Assembly: GCA_027531565.1 (NCBI GenBank)
Contig: JAPZSB010000002.1
Span: forward strand, 1 to 64,000
DNA length: 64,000 nucleotides
Source of the DNA: Beijerinckiaceae bacterium
Lineage (GTDB): Bacteria; Pseudomonadota; Alphaproteobacteria; Rhizobiales; Beijerinckiaceae
Direction of reading: 5' to 3'
This document shows, piece after piece, positions 2,918-19,685 of the stretch (position 1 is its first letter; every line of letters starts with the position of its first letter). Below the pieces are notes generated by a model, which saw only the letters and a list, made by a program, of their open reading frames with translations, was not told the DNA's origin and did no database searches. The position numbers were made by a program, and so were the translations under genes.

Positions 2918-3007
2918 TGGCGGACAGGGAGGGATTCGAACCCTCGATAGAGTTGCCCCTATACACGCGTTCCAGGCGTGCGCCTTCAACCACTCGGCCA
3001 CCTGTCC
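2918..3007 (-). tRNA. serT-like (GGA): tRNA-Ser (anticodon GGA), CCA encoded
   Basis: The reverse strand folds as a class II tRNA. It has a 7-bp acceptor stem GGACAGG/CCTGTCC, a D-arm with GCCGAGTGG, anticodon stem CACGC/GCGTG with loop CTGGAAC (anticodon GGA, reads UCC/UCU), a long variable arm (ATAG/CTAT), and a T-arm GAGGG-TTCGAAT-CCCTC. The discriminator is G and the CCA end is in the DNA. The long variable arm and anticodon both indicate serine. Its 5' part is duplicated about 96 bp upstream in the transcription direction. Confidence 0.95.
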
Positions 3008-19097: not shown

Positions 19098-19330
19098 CTA
19101 CGCAGAAGAAGTAGCTTAAGATTAAGCGAAGATTCCGATTGCCTTACCAGTCTGGCAAGGTTCCGGCGGACATGTTGCATCGGATTTTCTTTGCTTCTCA
19201 AAAGCTTCCAAAGAATCGCCGGATTGTCCACACGATTCACAAGTTAGTCACCAGATGTTGCGACCATCATTTGGATGCCCAACGAGATATTGACGGCCCG
19301 GAAGCGGTACAGTTAACGTACCCCTACTTG

Positions 19331-19424
19331 CAAACGAAAAGGGCCGCCCAATGCGCCAACATTGGAACGGCCCGGTTCGTTCACCCCTAGATTGCATCTA
19401 GCTGGGGCAGTCGTGTCTATCGAC
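19331..19424 (-). ncRNA. Candidate small RNA, about 90 nt
   Basis: Minus-strand unit with all parts of an independent sRNA gene: a promoter at 19431-19459, a start predicted near 19424, and three successive hairpins. These are GTCG-loop-CGAC near the 5' end, a middle stem (CTAGAT 19387-19392 with ATCTAG 19396-19401, extended by CCC/GGG), and a long terminator stem at 19341-19373 followed by TTTTCGTTT. No open reading frame with a ribosome site lies in it. I do not recognise the family; the SRP RNA tetraloop motif is absent. The neighbouring HTH gene starts about 70 bp away on the opposite strand. Confidence 0.55.
19336..19373 (-). terminator. Intrinsic terminator of the candidate sRNA
   Basis: Arms GGGCCG (19341-19346) with CGGCCC (19368-19373), and inner CCAATG (19348-19353) with CATTGG (19360-19365), are followed on the minus strand by TTTTCGTTT. 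It resembles the pnp terminator at 19688-19715 but ends a different transcript, since no minus-strand gene lies between them. Confidence 0.7.
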
Positions 19425-19430
19425 AACGGG

Positions 19431-19459
19431 AGTAAACGCTCCTGTAGACTCGGCGTCAA
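19431..19459 (-). promoter_or_regulatory. Sigma-70 type promoter for the candidate sRNA
   Basis: Minus strand: -35 TTGACG (19459-19454), exactly 17 bp spacer, -10 TTTACT (19436-19431). The -35 matches five of six consensus bases and the -10 four of six. A GGAG/CTCC inverted repeat overlaps the -10 and could bind a regulator. Confidence 0.55.
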
Positions 19460-19493
19460 GTGGCTAGGTGCGCTCTCTTAATGGAGGAGCCCT

Positions 19494-19685
19494 ATGGCCC
19501 GCCATACTCGTCGTTCGCCTGATTTCCACGAAGCTGTCCAGATTTGGGTTCTTTTGAACAGCGGGATGTTCCAGCACGACATCGCCGCAAGGTTTGGCTT
19601 TAATCAGGGTCGGATTTCCGAAGTCAGGACCGGAAAGCGCCACCCGTTGGCTCGTGAGGCAGCCATGCGGCGGTTGTCTCGGTAA
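19494..19685 (+). CDS. Small helix-turn-helix protein, 63 residues
   Basis: Probable DNA-binding protein of unknown target. The sequence opens MARHTRRSPDFHEAVQIW and has a helix-turn-helix at about residues 27-49 (QHDIAARFGFNQGRISEVRTG), with a basic tail. GGAGGAG is 5 nt before the ATG, supporting translation. Similar tiny HTH proteins are scattered in Hyphomicrobiales genomes; I know of no assigned role. It faces the pnp terminator and lies beside the divergent candidate sRNA, which it might regulate (inference). Confidence 0.75.
   Translation: MARHTRRSPDFHEAVQIWVLLNSGMFQHDIAARFGFNQGRISEVRTGKRHPLAREAAMRRLSR

Follow-up and report, generated by a model that had tools for sequence, protein, structure and literature searches.

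A candidate cis-antisense RNA gene in the leader of a small HTH protein gene from a Beijerinckiaceae bacterium

We propose that positions 19331-19459 of the window (the whole stretch of 64,000 nucleotides of Beijerinckiaceae DNA analysed here) encode a cis-antisense RNA that holds back the translation of a small HTH protein whose gene lies on the opposite strand. Judged from sequence, the probability of this reading is about 0.7. In the leader of the HTH mRNA, a segment of the stem-loop I loop, termed arm1, could pair with a second segment, arm2, located just upstream of the Shine-Dalgarno sequence. Arm2 would also overlap the strand that would otherwise mask the Shine-Dalgarno sequence; hence, pairing of arm1 with arm2 should favour translation. 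The antisense RNA would be a copy of stem-loop I with the arm2 sequence in its loop. By taking arm1, it would allow arm2 to rejoin the Shine-Dalgarno hairpin and so stop synthesis of the HTH protein. Both the production of the two RNAs and this direction of the switch are inferred. The features are given below by position, strand and basis.

19212-19307, plus strand: near-copy of the nrdJ (class II ribonucleotide reductase) promoter region, 88/96 bases (91.7%), pointing to the HTH gene
19290-19319, plus strand: proposed sense promoter, -35 TTGACG 19290-19295, 18 bp, -10 TAACGT 19314-19319, from alignment to nrdJ promoters
19327-19493, plus strand: proposed 5' leader of the HTH mRNA, its probable start placed by the promoter
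19331-19424, minus strand: candidate antisense RNA (94 nt), from sequence reading, fold, comparison with the congener G002 and family anatomy
19341-19373, minus strand: predicted hairpin of the antisense terminator, with its U-run extending down from 19340, from sequence, fold and the strand bias of the hairpin in the family
19384-19407, both strands: predicted stem-loop I, CCCC/GGGG with a 16-nt loop, in both RNAs, from sequence; weak in the window (z 0.9)
19394-19403, plus strand: arm1 (GCATCTAGCT), within the loop of stem-loop I, from sequence and arm-pairing analysis
19427-19444, plus strand: hairpin or palindrome over the antisense -10, from family hairpin analysis
19431-19459, minus strand: putative antisense promoter, -10 19436-19431, -35 19459-19454, from sequence and family motif counts
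19462-19471, plus strand: arm2 (GGCTAGGTGC), predicted to pair with arm1, from sequence, arm-pairing analysis and comparison with G002
19472-19490, plus strand: GCTC/GAGC hairpin holding the Shine-Dalgarno sequence GGAGGAG (19483-19489); weak in the window (z -0.2)
19494-19685, plus strand: 63-aa HTH protein, the proposed target, from its purifying pattern, homologues and predicted fold

An earlier sequence-only reading had described an RNA on the minus strand, about 90 nt long and with a promoter and a terminator of its own, and this is supported by sequence reading, fold and comparison. The promoter (-35 TTGACG at 19459-19454, 17 bp, -10 TTTACT at 19436-19431) is present on direct reading, and the expected start near 19424, downstream of it, agrees with the sequence. 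Three stems follow (GTCG/CGAC, CCCC/GGGG and the terminator) and then TTTTCGTTT, all within 19331-19459. The MFE of 19331-19424 on the minus strand is -44.2 kcal/mol, versus -28.15 (sd 2.98) for 200 shuffles (z -5.4); longer versions of the RNA give z -3.95 at 102 nt and z -3.5 at 140 nt against shuffles, and the plus strand of 19331-19424 gives z -3.4. A simple consensus scan, which requires an A as the second base of the -10, lists neither the promoter nor the terminator of the candidate. Pattern alone does not set these two signals apart from chance, and it is comparison that carries the case.

The terminator had been held distinct from that of pnp, and it is: pnp has its own terminator at 19716-19692 on the minus strand, which rules out the candidate as the pnp terminator. 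The claimed lack of coding capacity agrees with the minus strand of the candidate, which holds no ORF of at least 50 aa; a 59-aa minus-strand ORF at 19464-19643 lies outside the RNA body, opposite the HTH gene, is without a Pfam match and is taken as chance. A riboswitch or other known ncRNA was also rejected. The Rfam scan of the window gave no family at gathering score on the candidate, the best sub-threshold match there being ctRNA_p42d with 15 of 50 bits, and scans of 8 and 14 related loci gave only tRNAs. Elsewhere in the window, an nhaA-I RNA (RF03057, 46.1 bits, gathering 37) lies at 2742-2797 on the minus strand, adjoining tRNA-Ser(GGA) at 2918-3007.

The candidate is flanked by an isochorismatase gene, the HTH ORF and pnp. 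The HTH ORF (63 aa, plus strand, 19494-19685, with the Shine-Dalgarno sequence GGAGGA) was absent from the sequence-only reading. Compared with G002, it differs at 7, 8 and 30 nucleotides in codon positions 1, 2 and 3, respectively; thus, it behaves as a protein gene. The structure model of the protein is confident (pLDDT 90.5, four helices). Pfam holds no match for the window's HTH protein, its PHROG matches are weak and to transcriptional regulators, and a fold search of the model against the PDB returned no match at E <= 0.001, the best being the CENP-B N-terminal HTH at E 0.6. Conservation of the candidate in close relatives, on which the sequence-only reading had staked its RNA, is half borne out by DNA: a DNA search of 61 genomes found the candidate in two, both among the 17 from the same genus. 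Identity to G002 is 93.0% over 19331-19459 (120/129 columns), 76.6% over the HTH ORF (147/192) and 65.5% over the spacer 19101-19211 toward the isochorismatase gene (74/113). The loop-side pair 19391/19397 has changed on both sides between the window and G002.

On the plus strand, 19212-19307 is a second copy of the same genome's nrdJ promoter region, far from nrdJ itself and at the same place in G002. The name nrdJ comes from NCBIfam (vitamin B12-dependent ribonucleotide reductase, from 411 residues). Of the 17 same-genus genomes, 12 have this nrdJ-upstream stretch, and at every one of the 12 loci checked it stands upstream of nrdJ. The TTGACG and TA.C.T of the proposed sense promoter stand at the nrdJ promoter spacing, and both are conserved in nrdJ promoters. 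Given that this nrdJ-like promoter stretch points to the HTH gene, the HTH transcript probably starts near 19327, with a leader that runs through the candidate. Also conserved upstream of nrdJ are two repeats with an AGAT core (19253-19256 and 19285-19288), which may be NrdR-box-like; they are 32 bp apart, a spacing that agrees with the account of NrdR boxes in the relevant passage of PMC12051234, where an integral number of helix turns separates the box centres. The genome encodes both GcrA and NrdR.

Relatives of the HTH protein were sought by protein and by profile, and the following counts include relatives without the module. They were found in 24/298 family genomes at E <= 1e-3 and 30/298 at 1e-6, in 11/385 class genomes at 1e-6, in 36/397 order genomes at 1e-8, at 54 viral-contig loci, and on plasmid or phage records of Methylobacterium, Rhizobium, Azospirillum, Agrobacterium, Ensifer and Bradyrhizobium. 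Many of them, in other Alphaproteobacteria, viral contigs and plasmids, share one anatomy: an antisense -35, an antisense terminator, an arm1 loop, an arm2 and a Shine-Dalgarno hairpin. Removal of duplicates left 129 loci, 55 of them with an HMM score of at least 58, a cut-off that was fixed after the loci had been viewed, with an HMM built from members whose upstream regions had already been inspected. GTCAA, the minus-strand -35 box, lies 25-70 nt before the HTH start in 41 of these 55, while random windows of the same loci have a mean of 3.0 and a maximum of 7. Arranged by HMM score, it is present in 18/20 loci at 100 or above, in 13/15 at 85-100, then in 3/6 and 7/14, and in 17/74 below 58.

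GTCAA is absent from 14 of the 55 loci (L024, L156, L160, L108, L165, L100, L167, L121, L117, L129, L168, L061, L053 and L170). One of them, L100 (Bradyrhizobium phage ppBeUSDA76-1), has its HTH relative near DNA ligase and site-specific integrase genes. At L040, L045 and L046, a different HTH subfamily with a DELPPPGPYP-like tail stands directly behind another gene, seemingly without an antisense module. Small ORFs lie downstream of the HTH ORF at L032, L034 and L027, alike in the first two, and suggest an operon of small genes. With the terms used, the papers listed first in the open library include no description of such an HTH module with an antisense RNA.

Forty modules were analysed further, L110 being dropped as a near-duplicate and the 14 loci without GTCAA left out. 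In their sense-promoter stretches, 61 GANTC (CcrM methylation) sites occur in 31/40 modules (random mean 6.8, max 16); the sites are clustered, often as TTGACTC overlapping the -35 box. Plus-strand promoters lie upstream in 27/40. Control of the sense promoter by LexA or DnaA was rejected, in that LexA-like spacing in 4/40 modules (random mean 0.9, max 4) and DnaA boxes in 1/40 (random mean 0.2, max 2) do not carry the family. The window has a GANTC site, GACTC at 19447-19451, in the spacer of its antisense promoter.

At the level of sequence, comparison across the family shows conserved places of the antisense -35, the terminator, the two arms and the Shine-Dalgarno hairpin, the covariation of arm1 with arm2, and opposite strand biases of the arm1:arm2 helix and the terminator hairpin; the rows entering these statistics are related, and the p values are therefore optimistic. 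A member's own arms score 9.5, versus 5.8 with arm2 swapped between members, and lie above the swap mean in 39 of the 40 modules; arm pairing exceeds z 2 in 24/40. Arm1 has at least 4 nt inside the loop of stem-loop I in 32/40, and stem-loop I itself is weak over all 40 modules (mean z 1.2). Arm2 overlaps the Shine-Dalgarno hairpin in 32/40 (shuffled mean 19.1, max 26), and this hairpin scores 6.97 versus 5.08 shuffled. Thirteen leaders were aligned, namely those that align well (L104, L155, the window and L009 were dropped from 17, themselves 17/28), and in these 89.4% of cells are paired and 15/19 pairs have changed on both sides (12/13 arm pairs and 3/6 stem pairs). Covariation in the 13 leaders is 0.545 versus 0.252; none of 500 shuffles reaches it, and slid versions give at most 0.244.

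The arm1:arm2 pairing spans the antisense promoter, and so only a plus-strand RNA can hold both arms. Their pairing in the 40 modules comprises 50 G-U and 19 A-C, against a shuffled G-U fraction of 0.52 (p 6e-4). The antisense terminator hairpin, in plus-strand notation, has 3 G-U and 19 A-C, some of the A-C cells adjoining its A-run, against 108:106 in random hairpins (p 9e-4). Because A-C exceeds G-U in that notation, the wobble pairs of this hairpin lie on the minus strand. The G-U bias thus suggests that arm1:arm2 acts in the sense RNA and that the terminator acts in the antisense RNA. Furthermore, the A-run (plus-strand notation) on the minus 3' side of the terminator beats the T-run opposite in 32 modules, the reverse being seen in 4, and an antisense -10 TAnnnT at 16/17 bp is present in 14/40 modules, compared with 7/321 for other TTGAC. 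The palindrome over the antisense -10 could be an operator for the HTH protein. Its hairpin scores 5.1 versus 4.0 shuffled and shows no strand bias (G-U 11, A-C 7, p 0.48).

A covariance model, R1, was built from 13 members. It matches L104 (E 1e-10) and L155 (3e-6), both outside the training set. Of 23 further loci it matches 5, with the window and L009 unmatched at E <= 10. Over 298 family genomes, it returned 5 training members and 3 weak matches; one of these, a 27-bit match at L230 (1501-1603, minus strand, congener G014), lies within an ORF and is probably due to chance. As a route to the window, R1 is too narrow and misses it. The window's own parts are weak (arms z 1.6, Shine-Dalgarno hairpin z -0.2, stem-loop I z 0.9), and its apparent membership in the family rests on HTH homology, the positions of the parts and the antisense gene. 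We infer that it works as the other members do.

The sequence-only reading had taken the RNA for an independent transcript. A trans-acting sRNA, to which the neighbouring HTH gene is incidental, would explain why the candidate has its own promoter and terminator, a strong fold and better conservation than its neighbours between the two species. However, the layout recurs before HTH relatives (41/55), and arm2 of the HTH leader is matched to the loop; we regard this explanation as improbable. Independence is the part of the earlier claim that finds no support, the same layout preceding many HTH relatives and the RNA being complementary to the HTH leader. If instead only the plus strand mattered, the HTH mRNA would simply have a structured leader, and the minus-strand promoter and terminator would be by-products of its folds. 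Arm1:arm2 and the Shine-Dalgarno hairpin do follow plus-strand logic, and upstream plus-strand promoters (27/40) agree with it, but neither the G-U of the terminator hairpin on the minus strand, with the U-run on the minus side, nor the enrichment of the antisense -10 is expected in that case, which we regard as improbable.

Another explanation is a symE/symR-like type I toxin-antitoxin, in which DNA binding by the HTH protein would be harmful to the cell, with the antisense RNA as its antitoxin. A small DNA-binding-like protein under an antisense RNA suits it, as does the patchy spread (2/17 congeners by DNA; plasmids and viral contigs). Nevertheless, the HTH fold alone, as modelled, would fit a regulator better, and we consider a toxin unlikely. 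This explanation concerns the role of the protein and is compatible with the best one, the cis-antisense switch.

If the cis-antisense switch is real, a cassette of the plasmid copy-number type would govern a family of small DNA-binding proteins, widespread and unnamed, that occurs both on chromosomes and on mobile elements, and this HTH family would be tied to CcrM methylation or ribonucleotide-reductase control, i.e. to DNA replication. The sense promoter may be timed by DNA replication, through CcrM/GcrA-type sites in most members and through the nrdJ type in the window. More tentatively, a repABC-type copy-control cassette (antisense RNA, two-state leader, CcrM sites in promoters) could have become detached from plasmid replication. 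Many Alphaproteobacteria would employ it on their chromosomes, prophages and plasmids to meter out a small HTH protein in time with DNA replication, the window's lineage having exchanged the methylation-type promoter for an nrdJ promoter copy. A dose-sensing resident copy would then silence an incoming one, which would amount to RNA-level incompatibility between mobile elements. We think of this larger scheme as possible, though doubtful.

The sequence-only reading recognized no known family. This stands at the Rfam gathering score, but a working relative can be named, namely the repABC ctRNA (RepE/IncA) with the repC leader. As described in parts of the literature on repABC, the ctRNA controls RepC via alternative leader folds, one with the Shine-Dalgarno sequence free (PMC3155836, PMC6090056), GANTC occurs in the sense and antisense promoters (PMC11514494, PMC6090056), and GcrA acts on the antisense promoter (PMC11514494). 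Like the repABC ctRNA/S-element (RF00489 ctRNA_p42d, RF00490; RepE/IncA/inc-alpha), the candidate would be an antisense RNA inside the leader of the gene it controls. An antisense promoter in the leader, with its -35 just upstream of the arm adjoining the Shine-Dalgarno sequence, is found in the window and in the family. The family as a whole supports predicted alternative leader folds, one freeing the Shine-Dalgarno sequence, which score poorly in the window (z 1.6 for the arms, -0.2 for the hairpin). The repB-repC spacer of Sinorhizobium meliloti pHRC017 has the same order, with GTCAA 65 nt before repC and then the arms AAACGTCGCC / GGCGCCGTTT; R1 gives no match to the pHRC017 leader. Unlike in repABC, the proposed target is a 63-aa HTH protein rather than RepC, no repA or repB lies alongside, and in place of repB and repC the flanks are the isochorismatase gene, the HTH ORF and pnp. 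In the portions of the repABC papers drawn on here, the antisense RNA induces a terminator, whereas here the second fold would be the Shine-Dalgarno hairpin.

Scores for the repABC families stay below gathering, at 15 of 50 for ctRNA_p42d in the window and 24.5 of 47 for the S-element on L155/L192, where the match ends at the start codon. Among 20 modules, the two best E-values are those of the Alphaproteobacterial sRNA ar35 (RF02346; 0.39) and the S-element (0.75); 20 control stretches 1 kb away list none of RF00489, RF00490 and RF02346. The ar35 match lies over the antisense RNA of L032/L188 on the right strand, with 22.4 of 45 bits (E 0.39), but is below gathering and comes from one of the 20 modules scanned. 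The sub-threshold matches on the window, L155 and L032 point the same way; the two E-values by themselves prove nothing.

In IncI-type rep control, an antisense RNA competes with a pseudoknot. In the module, similarly, the antisense loop and a downstream leader segment would compete for one loop, in agreement with complementarity and covariation. In the IncI complex, according to the section of PMC10724649 on this control, an antisense stem-loop RNA (Inc RNA/RNAI) kisses stem-loop I of the rep leader. The gene and the bacteria are different from those considered here. SymE, for its part, resembles the antitoxin MazE and is LexA-controlled, unlike the present HTH protein with its GANTC- or nrdJ-type promoters. 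The symE/symR pair, as outlined in part of PMC1891008, also sets a cis-antisense RNA against a small protein of nucleic-acid type. Taken together, while threshold and context keep the module out of the repABC families, on the best reading it would work like the repABC ctRNA/repC leader switch.
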